Shown here one piece after another: positions 43,640 to 61,740 of a stretch of DNA of 64,000 bases. Source of the DNA: Chthoniobacteraceae bacterium (GTDB lineage Bacteria; Verrucomicrobiota; Verrucomicrobiia; Chthoniobacterales; Chthoniobacteraceae). A program made the translations under genes and the position numbers. Below the pieces are notes generated by a model that worked only from the letters and a program-made list of their open reading frames with translations, was not told where the DNA came from and made no database searches. Every line of letters starts with the position of its first letter. Position 1 is the first letter of the stretch. The stretch is from the NCBI GenBank assembly GCA_947471505.1, contig CANIWM010000004.1, positions 62,001-126,000 of the forward strand, in the 5' to 3' direction.

Positions 43640-43702
43640 GCCGCAGGTGATCGTCTGCGCAGGCGGATTCGTCAACTCGCGGCTACCTCAATGGTGAGCG
43701 AA

Positions 43703-43754
43703 GCCGTGGACTGCTGTGACTTGTCACAGCCGTAGCCCCCGCGACTTGTCGCGG
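43703..43754 (+). repeat. Tandem pair of REP-like hairpins
   Basis: Two similar units in direct order: CCGTGG then GCTGTGAC-TT-GTCACAGC (43713-43730), and CCGTAG then CCGCGAC-TT-GTCGCGG (43739-43754). Each has a short perfect stem, a TT loop and a CCGTRG head; the second carries the GTAG tetranucleotide also found in the element at 3863. It lies between two leftward genes (43639 start and 43792 stop). Confidence 0.65.
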
Positions 43755-43791
43755 CAAGGAGTCGAGGCAACCGCCAAGGGCTCTGCGCTCC

Positions 43792-44346: not shown

Positions 44347-44384
44347 GCGGGGAATAATGCCGCACTGTGCGAATTTCGCAAGTG

Positions 44385-44828
44385 CTATTCTAACTCAGCA
44401 ACCGTCCGACCATCGGCACCCGGCTTATCGAGTTCAGTTCGTTCGCCGATGATTGCCATCACCCCGTCCTTGAGTCCACGCTCGAAGACCCGAATCGCAA
44501 TCGCTCCATTGTCCGCGATGATTGTGTAGTGGGACGTGTGGCGGTAGCGGCGCAACCCCGGCTTCCCGTCCACCATCCGCGCCATCTCAGCCACGGGCGG
44601 ATAAAGCCGTTCCGCATTGAAATGCCCATCAGGAACGCCGCTGTAATCATTTTCTATATCGCGAAAAATGCTCGTTATCAAAGCCAACGCATCGTCTCGA
44701 TTCGCTGCCGCAGGCGCATTGCCGAGTGCCATGAGAATCAGATGCACGCGCTCCCGTTTACTCTTCTGCGCTCCTTGGGTTGTCCCGTCGGCTGGTTGCC
44801 ATCTTGAATCGCTATTGTCTCCCGTCAT
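44385..44828 (-). CDS. Protein of unknown function next to the HTH gene
   Basis: A 147-residue protein from ATG 44828; the frame is open upstream to 45020 but that part is antisense-like text inside trpS. The first ~35 residues are polar and probably disordered; the rest is mixed alpha/beta (RVHLILMALGNAPAAANRDD, RRYRHTSHYTIIADNGAIAI, ERGLKDGVMAIIGERTELDK). No family recognised. It begins 31 bp after trpS and ends 38 bp before the HTH gene, so all three could be on one transcript. Confidence 0.7.
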   Translation of the reverse strand: MTGDNSDSRWQPADGTTQGAQKSKRERVHLILMALGNAPAAANRDDALALITSIFRDIENDYSGVPDGHFNAERLYPPVAEMARMVDGKPGLRRYRHTSHYTIIADNGAIAIRVFERGLKDGVMAIIGERTELDKPGADGRTVAELE

Positions 44829-44859
44829 CACGGTATTGTTACGGTTGAAAAGCGGGCCC

Positions 44860-45834
44860 TTACCGCAGCCCCGTCGCGAGGCGCACGCGCTCCATCGTTT
44901 TTGCAGCGACGGCCCGCGCCCGCTCGGCACCGTCGCGGAGGACGGCGTCCACGTAGGAAGGGTCGGCTGCAAGCTCGGCGCGCTTCTCGCGCATCGGGCG
45001 GAAGTGCTCCCATAGCGCATCGAAGAGTCGCTGTTTGAATACGCCGTAGCCCTGCCCGCCCGCGCGGAAGTCTGCCTCCATCGTGGCGACGTCGCCCTCG
45101 CTGGCGAAGAGCCGGTAAAGCGCGACGATGCTGCTGTGCGTGGGGTCTTTCGGCGACTCCACGGGCGTGGAGTCCGTGACGATGGACATGATTTTTTTGC
45201 GCAGCGGCTTCTCGGCGTCGAAGAGCGGGACGGTGTTGTTGTAGCTCTTGCTCATCTTCTGCCCGTCGAGGCCGATGACCGTCGCCATCTGCGGCAGGAT
45301 GCTGGCTTCCGGCATCACGAAGAGCGGTTCCTTTTTACCAAACGTGCGGTTCATCACAGCGGCGATGTCGCGGGTGACTTCGACGTGCTGCTTCTGGTCG
45401 CGGCCCACGGGTACAATGTTCGAGTCGTAGAGCAAGATGTCCGCAGCCATGAGCACGGGATACGCGAAGAGGCCGTGGACGGGCACTTGGTTGCGGGCGA
45501 CGTGGTCTTTGAAAGCGTGGCAGTTTTCCAGCATCGGCATGGGCGTGACGCACGAGAGAATCCACGCCAACTCCGTGTGCTCGGGCACGTCGCTCTGGCG
45601 GAAAATCACCGCCTTTTTCGGGTCGAGCCCGCACGCGAGAAAGTCGAGCGCGACGCCGCGCGTGTTGTCGCGCATCGCCTGCGGGTCGCGCACGGTGGTG
45701 AGCGCGTGGTAGTCGGCGATGAAGTAAAAAGCCTCGCCCTGCGATTGCAGTTCGATGGCAGGTTTCATCATGCCAAAGTAGTTACCCAAGTGCGGTGCGC
45801 CGGTCGGTTTGATGCCGGAAAGGATGCGTTTCAT
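44860..45834 (-). CDS. trpS: Tryptophanyl-tRNA synthetase
   Basis: A 324-residue class I aminoacyl-tRNA synthetase from ATG 45834 (MKRILSGIKPTGAPHLGNYF). The HIGH motif appears as PHLGN, and KMSKS as GQKMSKSYNNTVPLF. Other family text: ADYHALTTV, YPVLMAADILLYDSNIVPVG and DQKQHVEVTRDIA. It charges tRNA-Trp in the cytosol. Length is normal for the bacterial enzyme (about 325-345). It is divergent from ribD with an 87-bp intergenic region. Confidence 0.96.
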   Translation of the reverse strand: MKRILSGIKPTGAPHLGNYFGMMKPAIELQSQGEAFYFIADYHALTTVRDPQAMRDNTRGVALDFLACGLDPKKAVIFRQSDVPEHTELAWILSCVTPMPMLENCHAFKDHVARNQVPVHGLFAYPVLMAADILLYDSNIVPVGRDQKQHVEVTRDIAAVMNRTFGKKEPLFVMPEASILPQMATVIGLDGQKMSKSYNNTVPLFDAEKPLRKKIMSIVTDSTPVESPKDPTHSSIVALYRLFASEGDVATMEADFRAGGQGYGVFKQRLFDALWEHFRPMREKRAELAADPSYVDAVLRDGAERARAVAAKTMERVRLATGLR

Positions 45835-45921: not shown

Positions 45922-46941
45922 ATGAACCGCCAACTCGCCGAGGATGAAAGCCACATGCGCGCCGCACTGCGCGAGGCCCGACGCGGCATCGGCCTCACTT
46001 CGCCGAACCCGGCAGTCGGCGCAGTCATCATGAAAGGTGGGCGCATTTTATCCCGTGGCTGGCACCGCAAAGCCGGGATGCCCCATGCGGAAATCGAAGC
46101 CCTTCGCGCGCTCAAAAATCCCGCCGATGCACGGGGCGCGACGTTCTACATCACGCTGGAGCCGTGCTGCACTCATGGCCGCACGCCGCCTTGCACCGAG
46201 GCTATCGTGGCAGCGGGTTTTCGCCGCGTCGTCTTCGGCGCGACCGACCCAAATCCCGCCCACGCCGGGCGGGCAATCGGCATCTTGGAAACGGCCGGGC
46301 TACGCGTCACGCACGGCATCCTCGCCGACGAATGCGCGGAGCTGAATGCGGGCTTCAACCATTGGGTGACGACGGGCCTGCCGCTCGTCATCGCAAAGGC
46401 CGGGATGTCGCTCGATGGTCGCCTCACGCGCCCGCCCGGCGAAGGCCAATGGCTCACCAGCGAAGCCTCCCGGCGCGATGCGATGAAGCTCCGCGCCACC
46501 GCCGACGCCATCCTCATCGGCGCACAAACCCTGCGCGCCGATAACCCACGCCTCACGCTGCGCGGAATCAAAGGGCGACAGCCATTGCGCGTCGTCCTCA
46601 CCCGCTCCGGCGACCTGCCGAAAAGCGCGCACCTTTTCACCGACGAGCACAAAGCCCGCACCCTCGTCTATCGCGGCAAGTCACTCCGCGCCGTCCTCCG
46701 CGACCTCGGCAAGCGCGGCTGCACGACCGTCCTCATCGAAGGCGGCGGCGAACTCCTCGGTACGGCATTCGACGCCGGGCTCGTGCAGCGTGTCGTCTTC
46801 TACATCGCCCCCATCCTCTGCGGCGGCCCGAATGTGGTGAAAGGGCGCGGCGTAGCAGCCTCAGCCATCGCCCCGAAGCTCGCAGCCCCGACGTATCGGC
46901 GAATCGGCGGCGACCTCGTGATCGAAGGCAAACTCGTCTAG
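45922..46941 (+). CDS. ribD: Bifunctional riboflavin deaminase/reductase RibD
   Basis: A 339-residue protein that deaminates and then reduces the pyrimidine intermediate in riboflavin synthesis. The N-terminal deaminase domain has HAEIEAL and EPCCTHGRTPPC for zinc and catalysis, plus TSPNPAVGAVIM. The C-terminal reductase domain has AKAGMSLDGRLTRP, ILIGAQTLRADNPRL and VLIEGGGELLGTAF. Length is slightly short of the usual 360-370 but both domains are intact. No other rib gene is near. A hairpin terminator follows 53 bp downstream. Confidence 0.95.
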   Translation: MNRQLAEDESHMRAALREARRGIGLTSPNPAVGAVIMKGGRILSRGWHRKAGMPHAEIEALRALKNPADARGATFYITLEPCCTHGRTPPCTEAIVAAGFRRVVFGATDPNPAHAGRAIGILETAGLRVTHGILADECAELNAGFNHWVTTGLPLVIAKAGMSLDGRLTRPPGEGQWLTSEASRRDAMKLRATADAILIGAQTLRADNPRLTLRGIKGRQPLRVVLTRSGDLPKSAHLFTDEHKARTLVYRGKSLRAVLRDLGKRGCTTVLIEGGGELLGTAFDAGLVQRVVFYIAPILCGGPNVVKGRGVAASAIAPKLAAPTYRRIGGDLVIEGKLV

Positions 46942-46994
46942 GCGCTCTATGGACGCAGCCTAATGGCGAGGGCGGCGACAGGCCGGAAAAACAA

Positions 46995-47030
46995 AACCGG
47001 GAGCCGCGCTGTATGCGCGGACTCCCGGTT
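46995..47030. terminator. Bidirectional hairpin terminator between ribD and the 47054 gene
   Basis: AACCGGGAG-CCGCGC pairs with GCGCGG-A-CTCCCGGTT around a 5-nt loop (TGTAT), with a single bulged A. It lies between convergent genes. Read leftward, the stem is followed by TTTTGTTTTT, so it fits an intrinsic terminator for the leftward gene; read rightward, the T-run is missing and termination would be weaker. Confidence 0.8.
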
Positions 47031-47053
47031 GTGCGAAAATGTCGCTTCCGTCC

Positions 47054-48439
47054 TTAGCGGAGACTTGGCTTCACGGTGCCTTCCACCACGATTGGCGGCA
47101 GTGGCCCTGCGTTCGTCGATACCTTTAGTTCGATAGCGCTAAAGCTCCCAGCCGTGACTGTCACTGTCCCCGTCGCAATCTCAAACTTAGGACGAGGGAA
47201 GTAGTTGCCGCCCGCCATCCGAGAGACGGTAGCGCCAGCTAATGGAAACATGCAGTCGCCCTCATAATCGTCGAACCAACTGTAGCCTCGCATCGCGGTG
47301 ACCTGGTAGGTCCCATCGGGCGTATTGATCGAAAAAGCGCCTTCCTCATCCGTGGATGTGTCTTCCTCGAAGGGCGGGCGGACGCTGCCGTCCGCCGCAG
47401 AAGTCTCCAAAACACTCACATTCCAGCCTGAAGCCGCAGTTCCATCCGCGAATTTAACGGTGCCATTCACACCCGTATCTTCCTGGGGTTCCCGCGGTCC
47501 GAGTTCCGGCAAAATACGAATGACGGCTTTCGTCTTCACGCCATCTGCGACATCGACCTCCAGTTCACCCCATACCCAGTCGTCGCCATTTGGCCCCTCG
47601 GCGGAGATATAGTAATGACCGACGGGCGGAGTGAGTTTGAACATCCCGTTCTCGTCCGTCGTTCCTTCCCAATAAAACGGCTCGCGAAAGTGAATCGCAT
47701 TGTCGTCCCATGATTCCGAGACTTGCACATAGAAGCCCGCGCCGGGCGTCCACGCCTTCGCGATAGGCTCGCCATTTTTGTCGCGCTCACCGAGGAGCAC
47801 GCAACCGTCCATACTTCCCGTCGCGCTTTCTTCAGCGGGCGGCGTGACGATAAATTGCGCGCTGGCGCTGAAGCTGCCCGCGCTGGCGGTGATGGTGTAG
47901 GTGCCGGGATAAAGTGGCGAATCTTCGATGACCAAAGGGACGCTCACCGAACTGCGCCAAGTCTTGCCAGCCGGGAGTGTGCAAATGATCTGCTCTTCCT
48001 CGTAGTTCTCCTCTTCCTCACCATCCGCATTGAGCCTCGTCCGCAACGCGGAGACAGGATTATCCACTTCCTCCACCGGCGATGGAGACTCCCAATAGAC
48101 GTTCCCGTCTTGATCCGAAAGGGTGATGTAGAAATGGCACTTCGCCCCCTCTTGCGAGTCGTAGGCGAACTCGATCGGGTTCTTGCTCCGGTTTGAGAGC
48201 GACACCGCAGTCACGAAATGATCCTTCACCAGAGCACGGAGCCGTTTCTTTTTCGCCAGCTTCTTCTTAGCGGCGGCAGTGAGTGGCTCGTCTGGCGTCG
48301 GATCAATCTCATCGCCCGGAAGCACCATCGGGAGTTCCGAAGCGCTCGTGCTGAGCGAGATGGTGACCTGCGCTTGCGATTTCTGCCCAGAGAGAAGCAA
48401 CGCAAGGAATGCAACAACGGTGATGAGTGTTTGTTTCAT
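47054..48439 (-). CDS. Exported BsuPI-like and carboxypeptidase-regulatory-like domain protein
   Basis: A 461-residue secreted protein with signal peptide MKQTLITVVAFLALLLSGQ. A Lys-rich stretch (TAAAKKKLAKKKRLRALVKD) precedes a BsuPI-type beta domain at about 72-205 (VSLSNRSKNPIEFAYDSQEG, HFYITLSDQDGNVYWES; YPGTYTITASAG). Two carboxypeptidase regulatory-like beta-sandwiches follow (WEGTTDENGMFKLTPPVGHY and DTSTDEEGAFSINTPDGTYQ). No catalytic residues are evident. The role is probably structural or binding at the cell envelope. Confidence 0.83.
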   Translation of the reverse strand: MKQTLITVVAFLALLLSGQKSQAQVTISLSTSASELPMVLPGDEIDPTPDEPLTAAAKKKLAKKKRLRALVKDHFVTAVSLSNRSKNPIEFAYDSQEGAKCHFYITLSDQDGNVYWESPSPVEEVDNPVSALRTRLNADGEEEENYEEEQIICTLPAGKTWRSSVSVPLVIEDSPLYPGTYTITASAGSFSASAQFIVTPPAEESATGSMDGCVLLGERDKNGEPIAKAWTPGAGFYVQVSESWDDNAIHFREPFYWEGTTDENGMFKLTPPVGHYYISAEGPNGDDWVWGELEVDVADGVKTKAVIRILPELGPREPQEDTGVNGTVKFADGTAASGWNVSVLETSAADGSVRPPFEEDTSTDEEGAFSINTPDGTYQVTAMRGYSWFDDYEGDCMFPLAGATVSRMAGGNYFPRPKFEIATGTVTVTAGSFSAIELKVSTNAGPLPPIVVEGTVKPSLR

Positions 48440-48527
48440 AATTTAATGCGCCCTAAGTGCCGTGCTCCTATGAATAGTGCAAACCGAATTTTGCGAAGAT
48501 TTCGGGGAGGAATCGCGACGTTTTAGT

Positions 48528-49856
48528 TCAGTCAATTTCGCGCCCGACCTTCTTCCGGAGGGTGACTCGGTTCATGCCGGTCTCGCGGGCGAGGATGGTA
48601 GGCTTGCCGTCGAAGTGGGCGAGTAAATGGCGGAGGGCCATGCTCTCGATGGCGTCGTGCATTTGGCGGTAGGTGGCCTTTTCTGCGAGGCGAGTGTCGA
48701 GCCAGCTTGCGAGGGCTGCGATGAGCGGCGCGTCGGGGTCTTTTTGGGGGAGTTCGCGGAGGTGTGGCGGGAGGTGCTGAGGGAGAAGGACGGGGCCGGT
48801 GCAGACGGCCGCGGCGTGTTCGAGGGCGTTGCGGAGTTCGCGGAGATTGCCCGGCCAGTCGTGGCGCTCTAGCTCGGCGATAGTCTCGGGAGCAAGGCTG
48901 AGTGGGGCTCGGAGGAAAGCGGCGGCGAGGGCGGGGATGTCGGCGCGGCGGTCGCGGAGGGGCGGCAGTTCGAGTTCGAGGACGTGGAGCCGGTAGAAGA
49001 GGTCTTCGCGGAAACGGCCGGCTTTCACTTCGTCGCGGAGGTTTTTGTGGGTGGCGATGATGAGGCGGAGTTCGATGCGGATGTCGGTGCGTCCGCCGAC
49101 TCGGGTGAAGGCGCGCTCTTCTACGAAGCGGAGGAGTTTTGCCTGCACGCTGGGGGCGATGTCGCCGATTTCATCGAGGAATAAGGTGCCGCCGGCGGCG
49201 CGCTCGATGTGACCCTGTCGGTCGCTGGTCGCGCCGGTGAATGCGCCCTTTTCGTGGCCGAAAAGTTCGCTCTCTAGCAAGTGCTCGGGAAGCGAGCCGC
49301 AGTGGAGCGTGATGAAGGGCGCGGCGGCGCGTGGGGAGTGATCGTGGATGACTCGGGCGGCGAGCGTCTTGCCCGCGCCGGTAGGGCCGGAGAGGAGAAC
49401 GGGCGCGTCGCTCGTGCTGGCGTGGGCGATGCCGAGAAAGACGCGCTGCATTGCGGGCGCGGTGCCGATCATTTGGGGGCGCGGGGCGACAGCGGGTTGC
49501 GCGGCGGGCGCGGTGGTGAGGACTTGCTGGATGGTCTGCTGGACTTCGCGGAGGTCGAGAGGTTTAACGAGGTAGGCGGCGGCTCCGAGCTTGCGTGCGG
49601 CGACGGCGTTTTCGAGGTTGCCGTGGGCGGTGATGATGATGACGGGGACGCCGGGAGCTTGTGCCCGTGCCTTTTCCAGCACGGCGAGGCCGCTGATGTC
49701 GGGCAGGCCGATGTCGAGGATGGCGAGGCTACTTGCGCTGAGTCTCTCCAGCCCGGCGCGACCACTGGCGCAGGTTTCGGTTTCGTGTCCGAGGCGGCGG
49801 CAGGCGGTGGCGAGGGCGGTGGCGAGGGCGGGTTCGTCTTCGATGATGAGGATCAT
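48528..49856 (-). CDS. Sigma-54-dependent NtrC-type response regulator
   Basis: A 442-residue regulator. The receiver (1-115) has IIEDEPALATALA, the phosphoacceptor in LAILDIGLPDISG and LVKPLDLREV. The AAA+ domain (130-345) has Walker A SGPTGAGKTLAARVI, the sigma-54-contact motif ESELFGHEKGAFTGA, Walker B GGTLFLDEIGDI and the arginine finger region GRFREDLFYRL. A Fis-type HTH ends the protein (PTILARETGMNRVTLRKKVG). It activates sigma-54 promoters after phosphorylation by the kinase encoded just upstream, with which it overlaps by 4 bp. Confidence 0.95.
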   Translation of the reverse strand: MILIIEDEPALATALATACRRLGHETETCASGRAGLERLSASSLAILDIGLPDISGLAVLEKARAQAPGVPVIIITAHGNLENAVAARKLGAAAYLVKPLDLREVQQTIQQVLTTAPAAQPAVAPRPQMIGTAPAMQRVFLGIAHASTSDAPVLLSGPTGAGKTLAARVIHDHSPRAAAPFITLHCGSLPEHLLESELFGHEKGAFTGATSDRQGHIERAAGGTLFLDEIGDIAPSVQAKLLRFVEERAFTRVGGRTDIRIELRLIIATHKNLRDEVKAGRFREDLFYRLHVLELELPPLRDRRADIPALAAAFLRAPLSLAPETIAELERHDWPGNLRELRNALEHAAAVCTGPVLLPQHLPPHLRELPQKDPDAPLIAALASWLDTRLAEKATYRQMHDAIESMALRHLLAHFDGKPTILARETGMNRVTLRKKVGREID

Positions 49857-51160: not shown

Positions 51161-51372
51161 CGGCGGTATTTCGAGTGAAAGGTCATGGTCATCATCTATC
51201 CACGCCAACGATTCAGCGCGAACATTTCTTAGCCATCACCCGAAAGAAAAGACGCGCCCTGGGCAAAGAATACACCTTTTTTCCAGAGACGGACCGGCAT
51301 CCGGGCAAACGTGGCACGGCCCCGGCTAAATGCGCGCTCGCACTCGATAGAGCGCACATTTACCAACATCAA

Positions 51373-52242
51373 ATGACCAACAAACTCACTACACTCATCG
51401 CCCTCGCCGCAACATCGGCGCTGGCAGCCGAAACGAAACCCGCCGTCCAAAAGATGCCGGAAGTCACCGTCACCGACGCCAATTTACTCACCGAGGAACG
51501 GCCCGTCGGCGAAACAGGTCGCCCGGAATGGACCTCCGCCCGGCGCTTCCCGACCACCCGCGTTTATATCCAAAAGGAGCCTTGGGAGGTCGGCGTGGAG
51601 ACGTGGTGGCGCTATCGCAACAAGCGTGACGGCACCAAGGTGAGCCGCATGACTGGCGAGATCGAAATCGGCCTCCCGCACCGGATGCAGCTCGACCTTT
51701 ACTACGACATGGCCGTGCAAGGCGACCGCAGCTCGCGCACGGAAGATTACGCCGTGGAGCTTCGCTACGCGTTGGCCGATTGGGGCAAGCTGCCGCTGAA
51801 CCCGACGGTATATGCGGAATACAAATTCGTGGAAGAAGGCGCGGATGTCTTGGAACTAAAACTCCTACTCGGGGACCAACTCCCCGGCGGCTGGCATTAC
51901 GGCGCGAACTTTGTGTGGGAAAAGGAACTCGCGGGCGAGCGGACGACCGAATGGCAGCTCGTCGCGGGCGTGAGCAAGACGCTCATTGATGGCCAACTGA
52001 GCCTCGGCGTGGAGGGCAAATACGTCCACGAAACGACCTCCACTAGCCGGGGCGAGCCGGAGCACAAAATCCACGTCGGTCCCAGCGCGCAGTGGCGGCT
52101 GAACGACAAATTCTCCGTCGCCACGACGGTGCTCTTCGGCCTCACGGATGACGCTCCACACGAAGAGTGCTGGCTGATTCTCAGCTACGACTTCGGGAAA
52201 AGTGGGGAGTCGAAATACAAGCCCATCTCGGGCCGTCGCTAA
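51373..52242 (+). CDS. Outer-membrane beta-barrel protein
   Basis: A 289-residue exported protein from ATG 51373, where the signal peptide MTNKLTTLIALAATSALAA starts; the open frame upstream to 51175 is not leader-like. After a short Pro-rich mature N-terminus, alternating strands dominate (VGVETWWRYRNKRDGTKVSR, GEIEIGLPHRMQLDLYYDMA, YAVELRYALADWGKLPLNPT, KLLLGDQLPGGWHYGANFVW). No plug domain is seen. The TonB-like gene starts 6 bp downstream, so they form an operon. The closely divergent sigma-54 two-component system may control it (inference). Confidence 0.82.
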   Translation: MTNKLTTLIALAATSALAAETKPAVQKMPEVTVTDANLLTEERPVGETGRPEWTSARRFPTTRVYIQKEPWEVGVETWWRYRNKRDGTKVSRMTGEIEIGLPHRMQLDLYYDMAVQGDRSSRTEDYAVELRYALADWGKLPLNPTVYAEYKFVEEGADVLELKLLLGDQLPGGWHYGANFVWEKELAGERTTEWQLVAGVSKTLIDGQLSLGVEGKYVHETTSTSRGEPEHKIHVGPSAQWRLNDKFSVATTVLFGLTDDAPHEECWLILSYDFGKSGESKYKPISGRR

Positions 52243-52248
52243 GACCGT

Positions 52249-52923
52249 ATGACGCTCAGCGGGAAATCACTTTTCGCCTCCACACTTCTGCACGGTTCGC
52301 TCGTGGCAGTGATGGCTGGCGTCGTGCTTTATCCCGCTGTGAAAATGACCGACGCACCAGCCAGCTCCGAGGACTCCGGGGCTGGCTGGTCGCTCGTCAT
52401 CGAGCAGCCCGCCGAGGCCGCTGAGAGCCCGTCTGCGGAGGTCGCGCCGGAAGTCACCCCGCCCATTCGCATCGCCACTCCCACGGTGCTCGCGACGCCG
52501 ACCCTGCCTGTCACGGACATCATCGCCACGACCGCGATGGGCGCACTTCCCGTCATCGCCGCAGCGCCGTCTTTCGCCATGAAACCGCGCGCGAAAACCG
52601 GCGGCAAAAGCAGAGTTGGAAGTGGAGCAGGCTCGGGAAATCGCAGCGCCATTTACACGCCCGCAAGTTACCTCAGCACGCCGCGCCCGAGCTTCCCGGC
52701 GACGGCGAAAAGTGCGCGCATCAGCGGCACCGTGATTCTCTCCGTCTCGCTCGACGATAGCGGCCATCCCATCGCTGTGAACGTGCGCACAAGCAGCGGT
52801 CACCCGGAGCTCGATGAAGCCGCTCTCCGGGCCGTGCGAGCATGGCGTTTTCACCCCGCGAAACTCGACGAACGTCCCGTGCCCACGCGCCTTGAAGTTC
52901 CTGTGCGCTTTGCGTTGAGCTAA
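52249..52923 (+). CDS. TonB-family energy transducer
   Basis: A 224-residue protein with one N-terminal membrane helix (LFASTLLHGSLVAVMAGVVL), a Pro/Ala-rich periplasmic spacer and a C-terminal TonB domain at about 135-224 (PRPSFPATAKSARISGTVIL, SVSLDDSGHPIAVNVRTSSG, ELDEAALRAVRAWRFHPAKL). TonB proteins pass proton-motive energy to outer-membrane receptors. It directly follows the barrel gene (6 bp). No ExbB/ExbD or TonB-dependent receptor is encoded in this window. Confidence 0.9.
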   Translation: MTLSGKSLFASTLLHGSLVAVMAGVVLYPAVKMTDAPASSEDSGAGWSLVIEQPAEAAESPSAEVAPEVTPPIRIATPTVLATPTLPVTDIIATTAMGALPVIAAAPSFAMKPRAKTGGKSRVGSGAGSGNRSAIYTPASYLSTPRPSFPATAKSARISGTVILSVSLDDSGHPIAVNVRTSSGHPELDEAALRAVRAWRFHPAKLDERPVPTRLEVPVRFALS

Positions 52924-53018
52924 AGCATTGGATTGCGTTCGCCGCCGTTCGGCGCGAGCATTTCCCCGAAATAAAATTGAATGCCGCAAGCACCAGCGGC
53001 GTCTCTTTTCCCGAACCT

Positions 53019-55013
53019 ATGAAACTACACACACTCGTTCTTGCCTGCGCCGCTTCGCTCCTCGCCTCGCCCACTTGGGCAGAAGATCGGCTGAGTTTTG
53101 ACTCCTTCCACGACTCCCTCTCGCCCTACGGCGAATGGAACCAAACCGACACCTACGGCCTCGTCTGGCAGCCCACCGGCGTGGACCGCGACTGGAGCCC
53201 TTACACCGATGGATACTGGAGCTACACCGATGCCGGGTGGACTTGGGTGAGCTACGAAGACTGGGGCGGCATCTGCTATCACTACGGTCGCTGGGTCGAG
53301 CTCGAAGGCCCCGGTTGGTGCTGGGTTCCCGGCTACGAGTGGGGCCCCGCGTGGGTGTCGTGGCGGAAAAGCGACGACTACGTCGGCTGGGCACCGCTCC
53401 CGCCGGAGGCTCGCTGGGAAGTCAACGTCGGTATCAGTTCATGGGCCGACACGCACTACGACATCGGCCCCGCACACTACTCGTTCTGCCACTCGCGGGA
53501 CTTCGGAGCGCCCGTGCTGCGTGGCGTCATCGTACCGCGTTCGCGGAATGTGACCATCATCAACTTCACGACGAACATCACCAATATCACATACAATCGC
53601 GACAGCGGCTACGTGTTCAACGGCGGGCTCGACTACGACTACATCTCCCCGCGCTGCGCCCACACCCTCCCCGCGCTCAAGCTCGTGCAAAACACCACGA
53701 ATATCTACGTGAACGGCAATCGCGGAAACGTCTTCATCAACGCCCAACGCGGCAACGCCCTCTACGTCGCCGCACCCCAGCGCGCCGAGAGCAACTGGAA
53801 CGTCCTCACCCGCAAACCCGTCATCGCCAAAACCTTCGCCGCACCCGTCGTCTCACGCGGCTGGGCCGGGATGGATAAAGACGGCACCCGCGACAAGCTG
53901 CTCGTCAAAATGCGCGGCGAAGTCAATGACGCGACGCCCGCCTCCGCTCCCGCCCGCGCCTTCCGCCCCGAGAGCATCGCCGTCGTCCCCAAGAAGGCCG
54001 ACCCCACACTCCCACGGCCTTCGCTGCTCAAAGCAAACGTCAGCCGCCCAGCCGACGATTCGCAGGATGGACCAAGCACTTTGAAAGCGCCCGTCGCCCG
54101 CCCAATGGTGCCCGACGCCCGCGAAGAAAAGCCGACCGTCCTCAAGCAGCCCATCGTCCACCCCGGCAGACCTGACGACGACAGCGACAAGCCCGTCGCC
54201 ATCAAACCCCAGCGCCCCGCGGCGCCTACGGACGAAAAGCCGACGCTTCTCAAACAGCCCATCGTCCGCCCAAGCAGGCCCGATGACGACAGCGACAAGC
54301 CCGTCGCCATCAAACCTCAGCGCCCCGCAGCGCCTACAGACGAAAAGCCGACGCTCCTCAAACAGCCCATCGTCCGCCCAAGCAGGCCCGATGACGACAG
54401 CGGCAAGCCCGCCGCCATCAAGCCCCAACGCCCGCCCGTCATCGAACGTCCAGCCGCGCCGAAAGACGACAGCGTCCTCCGCAAAAAAATGGCCGAGCAA
54501 GCCGACGACAACAACGCTCGCGAAGCCGCCATCGCCCGTGAAAGAGCCAGCCAAGCCGCAAGGCAACGCGAAGCCGACGACGCCCGCCGCATGACCGTGG
54601 AAAAGCAACGCCGCTCCGCCGACGCCGAGGATGCACAGCGCAAACAAGCAGAAGCCGCCCGCAACGCCGACGAAAACGCCCGTCGCCAAGCCCAACAACG
54701 CTCCGCAGCCGCAGCCGAATCCAACGCGCGCCGCGAGCAAGCCGCCGCGATGGAAAGACAACGCAACGCCGCCGAGCAGGACAACGCCCGCCGCGCACAA
54801 GCCGCCGACTCCCAACGCCGCGCACAAGCCGAAATGGCCAACCGCGCCGCCAACGAGGCTCGCCAGCGCCAATCCGAAGCAGCCCGCCAAGCTCCGCCAC
54901 AACGTCCGCCTCAAGCCATTCCACAGCGCCCCCCAGCTCCCACGCAGCCTGCGCCTTCCCAAAATCGTCCGCTCACTGAAGAGGAACAAAAGCTCCTCAA
55001 AAAGAAGCGGTAA
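53019..55013 (+). CDS. DUF6600 exported protein with repetitive, coiled-coil tail
   Basis: A 664-residue protein from ATG 53019 (signal peptide MKLHTLVLACAASLLASPTWA). Residues 25-175 are the Trp/Tyr/Gly-rich DUF6600 region (SPYGEWNQTDTYGLVWQPTG, ICYHYGRWVELEGPGWCWVP, WAPLPPEARW). The middle carries three near-identical 36-residue repeats (LLKQPIVRPSRPDDDSDKPV), and the last ~180 residues are an Ala/Arg/Glu/Gln-rich segment, probably a coiled coil or extended helix like TolA. DUF6600 function is unknown, though it resembles cell-surface aromatic-rich repeats. Probably periplasmic or envelope spanning. Confidence 0.85.
   Translation: MKLHTLVLACAASLLASPTWAEDRLSFDSFHDSLSPYGEWNQTDTYGLVWQPTGVDRDWSPYTDGYWSYTDAGWTWVSYEDWGGICYHYGRWVELEGPGWCWVPGYEWGPAWVSWRKSDDYVGWAPLPPEARWEVNVGISSWADTHYDIGPAHYSFCHSRDFGAPVLRGVIVPRSRNVTIINFTTNITNITYNRDSGYVFNGGLDYDYISPRCAHTLPALKLVQNTTNIYVNGNRGNVFINAQRGNALYVAAPQRAESNWNVLTRKPVIAKTFAAPVVSRGWAGMDKDGTRDKLLVKMRGEVNDATPASAPARAFRPESIAVVPKKADPTLPRPSLLKANVSRPADDSQDGPSTLKAPVARPMVPDAREEKPTVLKQPIVHPGRPDDDSDKPVAIKPQRPAAPTDEKPTLLKQPIVRPSRPDDDSDKPVAIKPQRPAAPTDEKPTLLKQPIVRPSRPDDDSGKPAAIKPQRPPVIERPAAPKDDSVLRKKMAEQADDNNAREAAIARERASQAARQREADDARRMTVEKQRRSADAEDAQRKQAEAARNADENARRQAQQRSAAAAESNARREQAAAMERQRNAAEQDNARRAQAADSQRRAQAEMANRAANEARQRQSEAARQAPPQRPPQAIPQRPPAPTQPAPSQNRPLTEEEQKLLKKKR
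54126..54449 (+). repeat. Three tandem 108-bp repeats inside the DUF6600 gene
   Basis: Units start at 54126, 54234 and 54342, each 108 bp and in frame (36 residues, E-K-P-T-x-LKQPIV ... KPxAIKPQRP). The second and third units are nearly identical for most of their length, and the first differs at a few positions. The layout points to recent in-frame duplication and possible copy-number variation between strains. Confidence 0.85.
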
Positions 55014-55033: not shown

Positions 55034-55912
55034 TCAAGGCGTCTTCTTCTCGTTGCGGTGGCCTCGGTGGCAGGCTGCGCAGTCTTCGCTCACTCGCTGC
55101 ATCGCGGCATCGGCGGCAGTGAGCGATGAGGCGCGGATGGCTCTTCGGAGGGCGTCCGCTGCCTGCGTGCTCTCGGCAAGTTTCTCGCGATAGTCGGCGG
55201 GGCGTTTGGCGGCGTCTTCGGTCCGAGCGAGTTCGCGGAGATGCTCCCAAAGTAAGGTCGCTTCGTTGGCGGCGTCGGCTTTCCATCCGGCTTTCTGTGA
55301 GTCCTTGAGCGCGTCGAATCGGTCGTCGATTTCCACCATCGTATCCACGAGAGCGGGCGTTTTCGCGACCTCGGGCAGTGCGCCGACTTTCGCAAGCTGC
55401 TCTTTAGTGACGGGCCGAAACTCGCGCACGGCCCGGTAGAGCCCGGTGTATTCTTCCGCCGTTCCTGCCTTTCTCAGCCATGCCTCTGCGTCTTGCGGGG
55501 ACCAGCTTGCGGTGGCCTCGCAGATGACCGCCACTGCGGCAGGGCCTCGATGTTTACCGTGGTGGCAGTGGACGTAAATGAGCCCGTCCCCCGCCGTCGC
55601 GGCTGCGCTGGCCAGCTCGGGGACGCGCGCGGCGGATACTCCGTCGTAGCCGATGGGTAGGTGGATGTAGCGCAGTCCGTGCTTGCGCGCGGCGGCGATG
55701 TCGGGCTTTGCGCCATCGACGCTGATGATGGTTTTGACGCCCATTTTCTCCAGCGTAGCGAAGGCTTCGTCGCCCTCGGGCTGGGAGCCGGAGATGATCT
55801 GCGGGGTCACGCGAAATGCGTTGTGCAGCTCTTTCACCGAAAGAGGCTCCACATCCGCGCCAAGGGCGAACGAGGTTAGTCCGACGAAAGCGAGACGCTG
55901 GAAAAACGTCAT
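55034..55912 (-). CDS. Exported Cys-phosphatase domain fused to cytochrome c'-like tail
   Basis: A 292-residue protein with a short signal peptide (MTFFQRLAFVGLTSFALGA). Residues 30-165 match the tyrosine/dual-specificity phosphatase fold: GSQPEGDEAFATLEKMGVKT and the P-loop H115-CHHGKH-R122 (C-x5-R with Cys116). Residues 185-292 are helical and end with C278-AA-C281-H282, followed by RGHRN, the C-terminal CxxCH heme site of cytochrome c'. A redox- or heme-linked periplasmic phosphatase is implied, though the phosphatase could equally be a rhodanese-like or non-catalytic variant. Its ATG overlaps the BufC stop by 4 bp, so it is the last gene of the bufferin-type operon. Confidence 0.85.
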   Translation of the reverse strand: MTFFQRLAFVGLTSFALGADVEPLSVKELHNAFRVTPQIISGSQPEGDEAFATLEKMGVKTIISVDGAKPDIAAARKHGLRYIHLPIGYDGVSAARVPELASAAATAGDGLIYVHCHHGKHRGPAAVAVICEATASWSPQDAEAWLRKAGTAEEYTGLYRAVREFRPVTKEQLAKVGALPEVAKTPALVDTMVEIDDRFDALKDSQKAGWKADAANEATLLWEHLRELARTEDAAKRPADYREKLAESTQAADALRRAIRASSLTAADAAMQRVSEDCAACHRGHRNEKKTP

Positions 55913-56793
55913 CGGCAGAGCCAGTCGAGCTTGATGAACATCGCAAATGTCTCGCGGACGCGCAGGACGGATTCAGCCGCAGACATTTCGACGGTCGCGA
56001 ACGCAGCTTCGCACGCCTCTTCGAGGGTAGAGCCTGCGCGCAATGCAGCGACGAGGCTGAAAGTGATGGCGTCGATACGCTTAAAATAGACGATGTTGTC
56101 CACGCGGTGAACCGCGAGAAAGAGAGGCTCGGGCAGTGGCTTCACGCTGAGACGCAGAGGGCGCGGGGCACGGCGGGCTTTGGCGGCGTTGCTGGATACG
56201 GTGGTCTCGCTGGTGCGCTTACGGAGTTTAGCGAGAAGCGTATCAACCGGATGTCGAAGCTCGACGAGCTGGAGATAGGGCTGGATGCCGAGGCGCAGTC
56301 GGGAAGGGTCCGCAGCGGCGAGCTTCGCGGGGCTGATGGGCTCACGGGCGGGTTCATCAAACGCAAGAGTCGCGGCCCATTCCACACGGGCGACATCGTA
56401 GGCGAGTGCGCAGTGCCGCCCGGTGAGCGCGGGGTTTTCTGCGAGGAATGCTGGGAGGTGCGAACCGAGGTTGCGCAGCGTCCATGAGTGCGAGGGGTGC
56501 GCGCTGAGGTAGGCGATCGTCAGTTTATCAAAGCACCGTGGGCCGATGACGGCGCGGACGCCGGGGAAGTCATCGCCGAAGAGCCCCGTGAGCCGCCACC
56601 AGTATTGCTGGTTGTAAACCTCCAGTCGCTCGAACGACGTGAGCCGGTCGTTCGACGCGATGGTGGCATCGGCAAACTCCCGGTTGCCGCGCTGCATCGT
56701 CTGGTCGGGCCGGAGCGGCTGACGGATGGCGTCGAGCATGGCGCGCTGCATCTCGCGCAGGGTGCCGGGCTTAGGCTGGGCGGACTTTGGCAT
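55909..56793 (-). CDS. bufC: DUF2063 (BufC-type) partner protein
   Basis: A 294-residue protein with the DUF2063 N-terminal domain: RLEVYNQQYWWRLTGLFGDDFPG near residues 57-80 and the downstream region TIAYLSAHPSHSWTLRNLGS. Such proteins partner DUF692 (MNIO) enzymes and are thought to present the precursor peptide. The C-terminal ~150 residues, with the fragment VHRVDNIVYFKRIDAITFSL, are less typical. It overlaps BufB by 23 bp and the phosphatase gene by 4 bp. No signal peptide, so cytosolic. Confidence 0.88.
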   Translation of the reverse strand: MPKSAQPKPGTLREMQRAMLDAIRQPLRPDQTMQRGNREFADATIASNDRLTSFERLEVYNQQYWWRLTGLFGDDFPGVRAVIGPRCFDKLTIAYLSAHPSHSWTLRNLGSHLPAFLAENPALTGRHCALAYDVARVEWAATLAFDEPAREPISPAKLAAADPSRLRLGIQPYLQLVELRHPVDTLLAKLRKRTSETTVSSNAAKARRAPRPLRLSVKPLPEPLFLAVHRVDNIVYFKRIDAITFSLVAALRAGSTLEEACEAAFATVEMSAAESVLRVRETFAMFIKLDWLCR

Positions 56794-57619
56794 TGGGCAG
56801 ATATTTTGCGGCTTTGAGGGCTTCTTTGTGGACTTCGTTAAACGAGGGGATGCGGTCGTCCCATTCCAGTAAAGTGGGGATGCTGCCGCAGCGGCGGATG
56901 ACTTCCGCGTAGATGTCCCACACGGGGTCGCAGACGGGGTGGTCGTGGGTGTCGAGGATGATGTGCTTGTGCCGCGTGTGGCCGGCGATGTGGATTTGCG
57001 CGACGCGCTCCAGCGGGACGCCGGCGAGGTAGTCGCGCGGGTCGAAGCGGTGGTTCTGCGAGGAGACGTAGATGTTGTTCACGTCGAGGAGGATGCCGCA
57101 GTCGGCGCGCTCCACGACTTCGCTGAGGAACTGCCATTCGTTCATCTCGCTGGCGCGAAACTCGGCGTAGCTGCTGAGGTTTTCTACGGCGATGGGCAGC
57201 TCGACGAAGTCCTGCACTTCGCGGATGTTGCGCGCGGTGGTTTCTACGGCCTCCTTCGTATAAGGCATGGGCAAAAGGTCGTGGCTGTAAGTGCCATCCA
57301 CGCTGCCCCAGCAGAGGTGGTCGCTCAGCCACGGAGTGCCGGTGCGCTTCACGAGGCGCTTGAGCTTGCGGAGATGCTCGCGATTGGGCCGCTCGCTGTT
57401 GCCGAAATACATGGAGACCCCGTGCTGCACGACGCGGTAGTTTTCCAAAATAGAATCGAGGACGTGGAGCGGACGCCCGCCGTCCACCATGTAGTTTTCC
57501 GAGATGATCTCAAACCAGTCCACGACAGGCTTTTTCTCTAAAATATGCCGGTAGTGTGGGACTCGGAGCCCGATGCCGATGCCGAGGTCGGTGGAAGCGT
57601 TGAAGCGGGAAGATGGCAT
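56771..57619 (-). CDS. bufB: DUF692 multinuclear iron oxidase (BufB-type MNIO)
   Basis: A 282-residue TIM-barrel enzyme of the DUF692/MNIO family, which uses two or three iron ions to modify cysteines of ribosomal peptides (for example MbnB, and BufB in bufferin synthesis). Candidate ligands are all present: H66 (VQHGVSM), H101 (LSDHLCW), E146 (VENLSSY), D179 (LLDVNNIYVS), H214 (IHIAGHT), D223 and H225 (LDTHDHP) and E252 (LLEWDD). N-terminal text GIGIGLRVPHYRHI is typical. It overlaps BufC by 23 bp and is preceded by the Cys-rich peptide gene. Confidence 0.93.
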   Translation of the reverse strand: MPSSRFNASTDLGIGIGLRVPHYRHILEKKPVVDWFEIISENYMVDGGRPLHVLDSILENYRVVQHGVSMYFGNSERPNREHLRKLKRLVKRTGTPWLSDHLCWGSVDGTYSHDLLPMPYTKEAVETTARNIREVQDFVELPIAVENLSSYAEFRASEMNEWQFLSEVVERADCGILLDVNNIYVSSQNHRFDPRDYLAGVPLERVAQIHIAGHTRHKHIILDTHDHPVCDPVWDIYAEVIRRCGSIPTLLEWDDRIPSFNEVHKEALKAAKYLPNAKVRPA

Positions 57620-57633
57620 TGATTGAAAATGAC

Positions 57634-57680
57634 GAATGACGAATGACGAACCGGGTTGCGAATTTCGTCATTCGTCATTC
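57634..57680. repeat. 17-bp perfect inverted repeat of TGACGAA-type motifs
   Basis: The left arm 57634-57650 (GAATGACGAATGACGAA) pairs exactly with 57664-57680 around a 13-nt loop. Inside each arm the heptamer ATGACGA is repeated. It lies between the precursor-peptide gene and BufB. There is no T-run in the reading direction, so it looks more like a dispersed repeat, attenuator or processing hairpin than a standard terminator. Confidence 0.7.
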
Positions 57681-57739
57681 ACCATTGGCTCCCGCCCAGA
57701 CCGGAGTCTGGGCGGAAGCCTGTGTGATGAGGAAAGGGG

Positions 57740-58054
57740 TTAGGCTTTCTTCTCTTTTTTCTTCGCGCCGTGTGTCGGCTTGCCTTCCTTCACTCCGCAG
57801 CCGCCTTTGCCTTTGCAGGTGTTCTTGCCAGCGCAGCCAGCGTCGCCGCTCTTGCAGCCGCCTTTGCCTTTGCAGGAGTTTTGGCCTTTGCAGGTGTGGG
57901 TTTCGCAGGAGGCCTTCTCGGCTTTCTCTCCAGCGGCGGGCGCGCCTTTTTCGTCAGCGGCCTGTGCTTTGGTCATATAGCCACCGAAGACGATGCCTGC
58001 GAGGGCGGCTCCGGCGAGCATGGTTTTGGTGGAACGGATTGTGATACGCTTCAT
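57740..58054 (-). CDS. bufA2: Cys-rich exported precursor peptide (BufA2-like bufferin)
   Basis: A 104-residue protein from ATG 58054 (an open frame to 58111 lacks a leader). The signal peptide runs to about residue 32 (TMLAGAALAGIVFGGYMTKAQA). The mature part has seven cysteines (50, 55, 61, 67, 74, 80, 86) in a CKGQNSCKGKGGC pattern used twice, then a Lys-rich tail (GAKKKEKKA). This repeat is what I associate with BufA2-type bufferins, copper-binding peptides whose cysteines become thiooxazole-type groups by MNIO action. The leader on the minus strand is A-rich (CCTAAAAACAAAAACAAAC) without a clear Shine-Dalgarno. Copper sequestration is inferred from the family. Confidence 0.82.
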   Translation of the reverse strand: MKRITIRSTKTMLAGAALAGIVFGGYMTKAQAADEKGAPAAGEKAEKASCETHTCKGQNSCKGKGGCKSGDAGCAGKNTCKGKGGCGVKEGKPTHGAKKKEKKA

Positions 58055-58401
58055 GTTTGTTTTTGTTTTTAGGTTTATTGATCGACCCGCCGAAATCGAC
58101 GGACCGACCATCAGACGTTAAAGCGGGAAGTTTATTCCGTGAGTATTCATTTTTGACGAAATCGGATGAAGTTTTCGCCACACCTGCGGCTCTACTCGAT
58201 GAGCGAACCATTGCGTGAATGCTCCGCTTTTCGGGGTAAGGCTTCAATAGTGTTACGGACACATGGTAGCGAAAATCAGAGAGATGGACCAGCCGTGGAA
58301 ACTCGCCTGTTCGCCTTCTTTCCGCCTCTCTTCGCCACACGTTTGCAAACTGTGTTACGAGATGAAGGCGTTTCAGCTTCAAAATCACCGTTCAAAATTC
58401 C
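58055..58401. promoter_or_regulatory. Divergent intergenic region between bufA2-like and beta-strand-repeat genes
   Basis: 347 bp with no credible ORF. It must carry the leftward promoter of the peptide operon and the rightward promoter of the 1,112-residue gene. The leftward leader is A-rich. Short direct repeats are visible: TTCGCCACAC at 58174 and 58331, and GTGTTACG at 58250 and 58352. I cannot assign a sigma-factor box with confidence. Confidence 0.4.
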
Positions 58402-61400
58402 ATGCAGTCACCCATCGTATCCAAACCCTCGTTCGCCGCCGCGCTCCTGCTCGGCGTTTCGTGCTGCCATGCTTTTTCTGCGACTTTTCAATGGGGAAAT
58501 ACAGTGGGAAACTGGAGCGTGCCTGCGAACTGGCAAGGTGCAGCGGCGCCCGCTGGGACAAGCTCGGCGGACGCTCTGGTGTTTTCCGGAGATGTCGGGA
58601 CGACGCTGGGTGTCGCCCCCAATTACACCACGACAAACGACACGGCAGCAGTGCCTTTCTCTCTCAACTCCATCACCCTGAATGCCACGGATGCGGCGGC
58701 TCTAGTCACCGATCCGGCGAACATCATCGCGGGAAACACGCTCGCGTTTGGCGGAGCGAATCCCCAACTGATTCAGAACGGTGCCGGGCATTTCACCTTC
58801 ACCACGCCGATTGTCGTTCCGGCGTCCCTTCACTTCGGTGGCAACGGAGTCGGTTCAGTGACGTTCAATCGCAAACTCTCCGGCTTTGGCACCATCATTA
58901 AAGACGGAAGCAGCGTATTTCGTTTTGGAACTTTTCCGCCGCCGATTGTACCGCCCGCCACGACGTCCACTGCGCCCTCGGAGAATACGTGGTTTGGCCC
59001 GCTTCAAATCAATGCGGGGACGGTTCGCTTTAACAACAACGCGGAATCTGGTCGCACAGCGCTGCGGGCAAATCCTGTGGCACTGCTCACGGGAGCGTCG
59101 CTAACATGCGCTTCGGAGCTTCGACTCGGCACGCTCTCGGGCAACGGAGGATTGGTCGAATCTCAAGTTGTGGGAACGAATACGGACACCGAAGACATCG
59201 TCGTATCCGCGTTTAGCAGTGGAACCTTCGCAGGCACGATTCACCTCGGCGTCCCGACAGGCACAGGCAACGATCTTGGCGCGCTGGTCGTCCGCGGCCC
59301 CGGCACCCAGACGCTGACGGGGACCCTGAATCTCAGTAAAGATGTCGCCGTGGGAGGCAGCCTTACATTTGACGGAGGGGCATCGCTCTCCGCGCAGACA
59401 ACGGGAGCTATCGTGATGGGCGGAGGCACATTCCGGCTGGAGAATGTGACGACAAACAACAACAACCGCCTACGTGATGGCGACAGCCTTTCAACAGGGC
59501 TCGATAACATTGGCGGCGGGCTTTTTCAGCTCTCAGGCCATGCGGGAGGGACGACAGAGACGCTGGGGCGGCTTCAGCTTTCCTCCACAAACGGCACCAT
59601 CAATCGCGGGCGCTCGGGCCAGCTCAATGTGCAAGTCGTCCACCGTGCCGGAGCAGGCGCGGCTACGGTGCTCACGATTGCGGGGTATCAACGCGACGCG
59701 TCGTTTGCGCGTGCGCTCAATACGGTGGAGTTCTCGGCCATCGACAACGTGGGCACTACACTGAATCTCGGCACTGCGGGCAATAATCCGCGCATCGTGC
59801 TTTCCACCGCACCGACGCTTGCAAGCTCCTTGCTCTCCAGCTCTGCGGGAAGCTCCAGCTTTGGCTGGGCAACTGTGCAAAAGACGGACGGCGTCGCCTT
59901 TGCCACACACGGCGCGAATGGCATCGCGGCTGTGACTACGACTACGCTGGCGCCAGCGACGTCGAGCGGGACCGTGAATTCGCAACTGACAACCTCCGCG
60001 ACCATCACCCCCTCGAACTACGCGCAAAATAGTATCCGCCTGCTCCCCGCCAGCAGCGGACTCACGATGACGCTCGGTGCAGCGGCAACTCTGACTACCA
60101 CCGCAATCGCGCTGGCAGGGCCGAATGATTTCACCATCACCGGCGGCACACTTGGCGGAGGCGGCCCGCGATTTATCAACGTCGAAAAAGCGAAACTCAC
60201 GCTGGCAAGCGGATTGGGCAGTACGCAGCCGCTGGTGAAGTCCGGCAATGGAATCCTAGCCCTCACGAAGACGACAAACGTGACCAGCACGCAACCGTGC
60301 GCAATTAACAGCGGCACGCTCTACGCAACCCCCGGCACAACATTGCCCAACGGCGAACTGCGCTTTCGCGGCGGCGTGCTCGGCATCATCGGCGGCGGGA
60401 TGTTTGCGAGGCCGTTTATCATCTCGAACGCGCCGGGGCCAGGGACCGTGAACTGGAGCGGGCTGGAGTATGTCGCCACGCCCACCCCGACCTCAAACAC
60501 GCTCCCGGAAGACCGAGGCAGCGGCGGCTTCGCGGCGATCGATGCAAATGCCAGCGTGGACCTCGGCGTAGCGGGCGTAAGCGATATACTTTGGGAGCAA
60601 AAGGGCTTCGTGCAGAGCGGCTTTGCGCTCGTCCTCGGCAGCCCGCAGGCAGCGGCAAAAATTACGCTCATCGACAACCTCAGCCTCAGTTCCGGCGAAT
60701 CGAACATCAACTACAACGCCCGCGAAATCCGAGTGCCAGACAATGCCGCATCGACCCTCGACCGCGCAGTGCTCTCCGGCGTCTTGAGCGGCACGACGCA
60801 CAACGACTTGCTGAAAACCGGCGCAGGAACACTCGAACTCACCGCCGTGAATACGTTCCTCGGCGCAGCGATCATCCACGCAGGCACACTCGTCGTCACC
60901 GGCAGCGCAACCACGGCCATCGGCCTCGACGTGATGACTGGCGCGACGCTCGCAGGCTCCGGCAGCACGACCGCCGTGCTCCTAGAAGGAGGCGGACAGA
61001 TTTCCCCCGGCGACAGCAGCATAGCCACCCTCACCGCCGCCGCCCTATCGTGGCGGGCAGGCGGCATCGCGCGGCTCGAACTCGGCACTGCGAACACCAG
61101 CGACCGCATCAACCTCGGCAGCGGCGCACTGGTAAAGGATTCTGCAAGCGGCACGTTCGCTGTCGATTTCGCCAACACAGGCGCGATGAATCAGACCTAC
61201 ACCCTCGCCACGTTTGGCAGCACGACGTTTAGCGCCAGCGACTTCACCGCTACGAATCTCGCCGCCGGAGTCACCGGGCGCTTCATCGTCACTGCGAACT
61301 CACTCGTCTATTCGACAGTCCCATCGACCCCGATGAGCACGTGGCGGGAGACTTATTTCGGCCTCGGCGCGACGAACAGCGGCACCGCCGCAGACAACGC

Positions 61401-61740
61401 AGACCCCGATGGCGACGGCCTGCAAAACCTCGCCGAATACGTCCTCGGCGGTAGCCCGATCCTACCCACCCGCACCACGACTCCGGGCTACTCGCTCGGC
61501 ACACTGACCTTCACCCGCAACCTCGCCGCGACCGACGTAGCACTGCGCATCGAGGCCCGCGACTCGCTCGCCACGGGCACATGGCTGACCATCGCGACAC
61601 GCGCAATCGGCGCAGGCTCGTGGACGACGACGAGCGGCGTCTCCGTGGTGGAAAATGGAAGCGCCGTAACCGCTACGGACGGGGTCACCCCAGCGACACA
61701 AAGCCAGCGGTTTCTCCGACTGGCCATCGATCATCCGTAA
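58402..61740 (+). CDS. Autotransporter-associated beta-strand repeat protein
   Basis: A 1,112-residue secreted protein. The signal peptide is at about residues 10-27 (SFAAALLLGVSCCHAFSA). The body is Gly/Thr/Asn-rich passenger text with autotransporter-type strand repeats (GAGTLELTAVNTFLGAAIIH, AGTLVVTGSATTAIGLDVMT, LVVRGPGTQTLTGTLNLSKD). No C-terminal translocator barrel is present. The last ~135 residues form the module DNADPDGDGLQNLAEYVLGG plus a beta domain, similar to the C-terminus of the 3,021-residue protein. It is a surface or matrix protein of unknown ligand. Confidence 0.88.
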   Translation: MQSPIVSKPSFAAALLLGVSCCHAFSATFQWGNTVGNWSVPANWQGAAAPAGTSSADALVFSGDVGTTLGVAPNYTTTNDTAAVPFSLNSITLNATDAAALVTDPANIIAGNTLAFGGANPQLIQNGAGHFTFTTPIVVPASLHFGGNGVGSVTFNRKLSGFGTIIKDGSSVFRFGTFPPPIVPPATTSTAPSENTWFGPLQINAGTVRFNNNAESGRTALRANPVALLTGASLTCASELRLGTLSGNGGLVESQVVGTNTDTEDIVVSAFSSGTFAGTIHLGVPTGTGNDLGALVVRGPGTQTLTGTLNLSKDVAVGGSLTFDGGASLSAQTTGAIVMGGGTFRLENVTTNNNNRLRDGDSLSTGLDNIGGGLFQLSGHAGGTTETLGRLQLSSTNGTINRGRSGQLNVQVVHRAGAGAATVLTIAGYQRDASFARALNTVEFSAIDNVGTTLNLGTAGNNPRIVLSTAPTLASSLLSSSAGSSSFGWATVQKTDGVAFATHGANGIAAVTTTTLAPATSSGTVNSQLTTSATITPSNYAQNSIRLLPASSGLTMTLGAAATLTTTAIALAGPNDFTITGGTLGGGGPRFINVEKAKLTLASGLGSTQPLVKSGNGILALTKTTNVTSTQPCAINSGTLYATPGTTLPNGELRFRGGVLGIIGGGMFARPFIISNAPGPGTVNWSGLEYVATPTPTSNTLPEDRGSGGFAAIDANASVDLGVAGVSDILWEQKGFVQSGFALVLGSPQAAAKITLIDNLSLSSGESNINYNAREIRVPDNAASTLDRAVLSGVLSGTTHNDLLKTGAGTLELTAVNTFLGAAIIHAGTLVVTGSATTAIGLDVMTGATLAGSGSTTAVLLEGGGQISPGDSSIATLTAAALSWRAGGIARLELGTANTSDRINLGSGALVKDSASGTFAVDFANTGAMNQTYTLATFGSTTFSASDFTATNLAAGVTGRFIVTANSLVYSTVPSTPMSTWRETYFGLGATNSGTAADNADPDGDGLQNLAEYVLGGSPILPTRTTTPGYSLGTLTFTRNLAATDVALRIEARDSLATGTWLTIATRAIGAGSWTTTSGVSVVENGSAVTATDGVTPATQSQRFLRLAIDHP

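Follow-up and report, generated by a model that had tools for sequence, protein, structure and literature searches.

Four minus-strand open reading frames (ORFs) lie at positions 55034-58054 of the stretch of Chthoniobacteraceae DNA analysed here (the window: 64,000 nucleotides, contig CANIWM010000004.1, positions 62,001 to 126,000). They look like one operon, in which the genes of a copper-peptide system of the bufferin type are followed by a fourth gene, called gene 4 here, predicted to encode an exported phosphatase-cytochrome fusion. We consider it very probable that a Buf2-like cassette and an unrelated, resident phosphatase-cytochrome gene were juxtaposed by an insertion, or less likely by a loss in a relative, and that gene 4 is not part of the bufferin system. 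Since the four-gene arrangement was found in the window genome only, it gives no support to a new metallophore accessory, the reading of the first-pass annotation. In characterised systems, an MNIO enzyme and a DUF2063/RRE partner install Cys-derived 5-thiooxazoles on exported copper-sequestering peptides (PMC12452194, PMC12668002). The four genes are as follows.

57740..58054, minus strand: BufA2-like precursor, 104 aa, with a Sec-type signal and 7 Cys (ATG at 58054)
56771..57619, minus strand: MNIO (DUF692/PF05114), bufferin maturase BufB, 282 aa, from profile matches
55909..56793, minus strand: DUF2063 partner protein, BufC-like, 294 aa, from profile matches and alignment
55034..55912, minus strand: gene 4, predicted exported phosphatase-cytochrome fusion, 292 aa, from profiles, homologue alignment and AlphaFold2

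These coordinates agree exactly with the four leftward genes described before, as do the overlaps of 23 bp between the MNIO and DUF2063 genes (56771-56793) and of 4 bp between the DUF2063 gene and gene 4 (55909-55912), the latter being an ATGA in which the stop codon of bufC overlaps the start codon of gene 4. The precursor has a second, longer in-frame ATG at 58111; the precursors of relatives begin MK... No Rfam family was found near the locus.

A census of 74 verrucomicrobial and planctomycete MNIO loci, some of them cut by contig ends, allowed us to ask which genes accompany the cassette. The constant core was bufA-MNIO-DUF2063 (DUF2063 in 67 loci, BufA in 61), and the usual extra gene was DoxX, present at 36 of the 74 loci and directly after DUF2063 in 26 of them. 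Gene 4 directly followed DUF2063 at one locus, the window itself; thus the proximity of gene 4 to the DUF692/DUF2063 pair, on which the first-pass annotation had staked its proposed accessory, is not conserved in relatives. Seen from the other side, 80 gene 4 loci with flanks of up to 6 kb included one with an MNIO gene (L035), separated from gene 4 by 5.2 kb and intervening genes. At the level of whole genomes, a sample of the order (213 genomes) contained MNIO in 41, full-length gene 4 in 10 and both in six, and the two were linked only in the window genome. An even sample of Verrucomicrobiota (319 genomes) had MNIO in 29 (27 over the cut-off) and gene 4 in three, with linkage nowhere except in the window genome. 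In an even sample of Planctomycetota (294 genomes, one species each), gene 4 was present in 98, about a third of the species (L053, L064 and L068 among its loci), MNIO in 85 and both in 42; in all 42 the two genes were unlinked, lying on separate contigs or 0.9 Mb or more from each other, as they were in five other verrucomicrobial genomes with both. Altogether 48 genomes carried both genes, linked in the window genome alone, and the four-gene set, sought in all three samples, was found only in the window.

Comparison with the nearest relative, G032 (loci L031 and L112), points to how the arrangement arose. The two genomes are syntenic over about 20 kb, mostly at 89-96% nucleotide identity with short stretches lower. 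Gene 4 of G032, 90% identical at the protein level, stands alone between the same divergent PATR-repeat and convergent DUF6600 genes, and no buf genes were found at that locus. Where the window has 2.3 kb, G032 has 166 bp.

55905..58213, no strand assigned: segment without counterpart in syntenic G032, which has 166 bp instead (blastn boundaries, junction alignment)
52977..55013, plus strand: DUF6600 protein, convergent flank, common to G032 (comparison with G032)
58402..61740, plus strand: PATR-repeat (autotransporter-like) protein, divergent flank, common to G032 (comparison with G032)

The segment comprises the entire buf cassette together with the region upstream of it, its left edge lies near codon 3 of gene 4, and the junction leaves both gene 4 and bufC intact. 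The 166 bp of G032 sit directly upstream of gene 4. No MNIO (PF05114) was found in G032, G025, G026 or G030, all four of which carry gene 4. Further window stretches of 1-2 kb are unmatched in the syntenic region of G032 (43691-44860, 46941-48531 and 51229-52947), so that the cassette difference resembles ordinary gene turnover, which is high in this region. We prefer insertion in the window lineage over loss in G032, because no other gene 4 locus examined has a cassette directly upstream; loss of the cassette from G032 is possible, and whichever occurred, the four-gene arrangement appears confined to the small window lineage. A search for the origin of the cassette gave no near match on plasmids, and in an MNIO tree with weakly supported forks the window genome (G000) clustered with G039 and G029, not with all its congeners. 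Two smaller features of the locus were also seen: the 166 bp of G032 (L112:10232-10397) contain a partly inverted repeat, CCACGGAAGGACACGGAAAG ... CTTCCGTGTC, perhaps a small repetitive element, and the DUF6600 gene contains in-frame repeats (RPSRPDDDSDKPVAIKPQRPAAPTDEKPTLLKQPIV) at window positions 54116-54439, with staggered matches 108 bp apart against G032.

Genes 1-3 form a bufferin-type (Buf2-like) cassette, as the first-pass annotation had recognised. The order A-B-C on a single strand is that of Buf2 clusters. The precursor has a signal-like N-terminus, judged Sec-type from its sequence and alignment, and exactly 7 Cys; in an alignment with 13 other verrucomicrobial precursors six of these fall on a conserved motif, forming a doubled C-x-G-K-N-x-C-K-G-K-G-G-C-like pattern, and C50, the first of the seven, is additional. 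The MNIO matches PF05114 (E=2.5e-108) and clears the NCBIfam BufB equivalog NF050167 (354.7 bits, cut-off 310). The DUF2063 protein matches PF09836 (E=1.2e-17; 64.3 bits, cut-off 27.2); its C-terminus is complete, with an NGO1945_C (RRE-like) match of 22.8 bits against a cut-off of 27. The 15 kb surrounding the window cassette (L111) yielded no DoxX gene. In relatives of the window's family, bufA is preceded on its own strand by a DsbD-type thiol-disulfide interchange gene (L123:1-978, L127:1488-3806, L130:4646-6805, also L124:2642-4819 and L129:11648-13501), nearly adjoining bufA at three of these loci. We find the DsbD-type protein a more credible candidate than gene 4 for a redox partner of bufferins.

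The domain architecture that had been read from the letters of gene 4, an exported protein with a phosphatase loop and a heme motif, is borne out by profile and fold comparisons, which describe a DSP-fold phosphatase domain fused to a class II (c'/b562-type) cytochrome behind a signal-like N-terminal stretch. Its predicted features are as follows.

55395..55840, minus strand: DSP-PTPase-fold domain, about residues 25-173 (TpbA fold match)
55547..55570, minus strand: phosphatase loop HCHHGKHR, residues 115-122 (C-x5-R invariant in 84/84 homologues)
55037..55375, minus strand: class II cytochrome c domain, residues 180-292 (profile search, separate prediction, fold search)
55067..55081, minus strand: heme-attachment motif CAACH, residues 278-282 (CxxCH invariant in 84/84)
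55337..55339, minus strand: Met192 in helix 1, candidate distal heme ligand (invariant in 84/84)

Across the 84 aligned homologues H115, C116, H117, H118, G119, R122, Met192, C278, C281, H282 and R286 are invariant, and the loop residues K120 and H121 are kept in 83. AlphaFold2 predicted the whole protein with a mean pLDDT of 94 and a pTM of 0.88, and the phosphatase part of the predicted structure matches TpbA (4r0s; Z 18.1, 2.9 A over 156 residues). As the whole-protein fold search listed phosphatases, the cytochrome part was predicted (pLDDT 93.5) and searched alone; its matches are anammox Kusta0087 (6r6o; Z 14.2, 2.4 A over 103 residues) as well as numerous c' and cb562 cytochromes. The Foldseek E-values for this part are weak (best 0.0099) and, for a helical bundle, a Z of about 14 is modest. 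We therefore base the cytochrome assignment mainly on the invariant CxxCH and on the profile search, which independently retrieves cytochrome c', b562 and c-556; Cytochrom_C_2 (PF01322) scores 25.5 bits, one under the cut-off of 26.5, and matches 50 of 59 family members at E<=0.01. By the starts of the aligned ranges, and assuming a gapless first helix, Met192 coincides with Met7 of b562 and with residue 32 of Kusta0087; a weaker sequence alignment sets b562 Met7 three residues later. In the model, Met192/His282 ligation of the heme is likely, and would favour a role of the heme in electron transfer or redox sensing over one in gas binding.

A different chemistry for the Cys domain, that of a Blh/TIGR01244-like sulfurtransferase or persulfide enzyme linked to the heme, would sit with weak matches to the Blh sulfurtransferase/dioxygenase and TIGR01244, with a weak match to BLH_phosphatase, a family hit by 34 of 59 members, and with the fact that Asp90, the general-acid candidate aligned with a TpbA Asp, is conserved in only 76% of homologues. 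The best sequence and fold matches, however, are TpbA and other true DSPs, and PTP-SAK (PF22784) is matched by 53 of the 59 members; gene 4 itself scores 29.7 bits, above the cut-off of 27. We therefore regard a sulfurtransferase as unlikely and keep the phosphatase assignment.

Eighty loci with gene 4 homologues were found, belonging to Planctomycetota, Verrucomicrobiota, Hydrogenedentota and unclassified bacteria, and most of the matches are near full-length; the phosphatase-cytochrome fusion is old and conserved. Our literature search for such a fusion returned nothing relevant, and in its main text the MNIO landscape paper mentions no phosphatase, cytochrome, Verrucomicrobia or Planctomycetes, so the family is apparently new to the literature searched. 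Between the window genome and G032 the Ka/Ks of gene 4 is 0.185 overall and 0.093 in the phosphatase domain; the gene is maintained under purifying selection, although the ratio spans the time before and after the insertion alike. There is no recurrent neighbour: 58 adjoining same-strand genes match 102 Pfam families, none of them in more than three. In several planctomycetes (L069, L073, L085, L079 and L108) gene 4 precedes, or diverges from, ABC transporter genes with a solute-binding protein of the SBP_bac_6 type, possibly for iron. In L034, SCO1/SenC and CusF-SCO1 genes (L034:4308-5839) lie directly upstream of gene 4 (5788-6816), and in L035 SCO1/SenC and CusF-SCO1 copper-protein genes (L035:1860-2753) lie about 3 kb from it.

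How the juxtaposed genes would work can be outlined from characterised bufferins. The DUF2063 protein would present the Sec-targeted precursor to the MNIO, which would convert the Cys of the repeated motif to 5-thiooxazoles, and the modified peptide would be exported and buffer periplasmic copper. The cassette would have inserted immediately upstream of the resident gene 4 in the window lineage and would now occupy the place of its own upstream region; with that region gone, transcription of gene 4 probably starts at the bufferin promoter. The gene 4 protein may carry out a heme-linked phosphatase action in the periplasm and would be dispensable for metallophore biosynthesis.

It is conceivable that selection acted on this new regulation, i.e. 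that the insertion placed a resident redox-linked phosphatase under copper control and was kept for that, the protein itself having no role in modifying the peptide. What G032 has in place of the cassette is the 166 bp that likely hold the gene 4 promoter, both genes are intact at the junction, and copper-protein genes occur near gene 4 in two other Verrucomicrobiota. Yet the arrangement is known from one genome, no sigma-70-like promoter site was found, and the other gene-sized differences between the two genomes mean that the junction may be neutral; we hold selected promoter capture to be quite unlikely. A more specific form, in which the fusion is a redox-gated exported phosphatase of many Planctomycetota and Verrucomicrobiota, whose class II heme controls the catalytic Cys or is served by it, captured in the window lineage into a copper-inducible bufferin operon, seems distinctly unlikely to us; if true, the capture would tie periplasmic dephosphorylation to copper stress.

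A role of gene 4 as a new accessory dedicated to the bufferin pathway, be it as a sensor, a redox partner or an export-side modifier, was suggested by the shared strand and four-base overlap with bufC and by the exported appearance of both products, and weak genomic co-occurrence with MNIO could be added. The census speaks against it, as gene 4 is common in MNIO-free genomes, lies apart from MNIO in the 47 further genomes that carry both, and stands without a cassette in G032, and we judge such a role very improbable. An assembly or binning artefact is scarcely credible: the window genome is in 153 contigs and the junction is seen in a single assembly, but the contig is 126 kb long, both flanks are syntenic with G032, the GC of the cassette (0.60) is close to that of the window (0.615), and other family members have cassettes similar to it.

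Several observations weigh against the reading of an unrelated cassette beside a resident gene. The precursor scores 24.9 bits on the NCBIfam BufA2 model NF050166, under the cut-off of 60, an annotation threshold, and we have filed it as Buf2-like rather than as BufA2 proper; ten verrucomicrobial relatives reach 22-53 bits, all below the cut-off, hence the model under-scores the whole verrucomicrobial precursor group and the window gene is not odd. Insertion versus loss was judged from a single close relative sharing the locus. The ATGA overlap makes co-translation in the window genome plausible, leaving room for a recent local function, and CusF/SCO1 copper-protein genes lie beside or near gene 4 in L034 and L035. 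In Planctomycetota gene 4 and MNIO co-occur in 42 genomes with 28 expected (Fisher p=0.0003), and in the window's family MNIO is present in 6 of 10 gene 4 genomes (p=0.04), an excess for which lineage (shared ancestry) and genome size may be responsible.

We believe that this case illustrates how a tempting 'operon' can stem from one insertion, and that those searching for metallophore accessories have one false lead fewer. Two real leads take its place: a conserved phosphatase-cytochrome family, which merits study in its own right, and a Buf2-like type of precursor in Verrucomicrobiota, under-scored by current models.

Among known systems, the cassette is closest to the Buf2 (BufA2) clusters bufABC(D) (PMC12452194), with which it shares a signal-peptide precursor carrying the six-Cys motif, an MNIO that satisfies the BufB model and a DUF2063 protein, in the same order. 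It differs from them in its precursor, which is under the BufA2 cut-off like those of its relatives and has one Cys more, and in having gene 4 at a place often taken by DoxX, which is frequent but not obligatory in Buf2. Captophorins (fontiphorin, oxazolin/HvfABC; PMC12668002) likewise combine an MNIO and a DUF2063/RRE partner with Cys-rich, copper-linked precursors, whereas the window precursor is without EGKCG repeats and the window proteins are under the cut-offs of the HvfB and HvfC models. For gene 4, the periplasmic dual-specificity tyrosine phosphatase TpbA of Pseudomonas aeruginosa shares the DSP fold, the HC-x5-R loop and the aligned candidate acid Asp, but has no cytochrome domain and is about 22% identical. 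The class II cytochromes c (c', c-556, cb562 and anammox Kusta0087, 6r6m) share with its C-terminal part the four-helix bundle and a C-terminal CxxCH followed by an Arg, and its invariant Met lies roughly at the axial Met7 position of b562; in gene 4, in contrast, this domain is predicted to be fused to a phosphatase domain.

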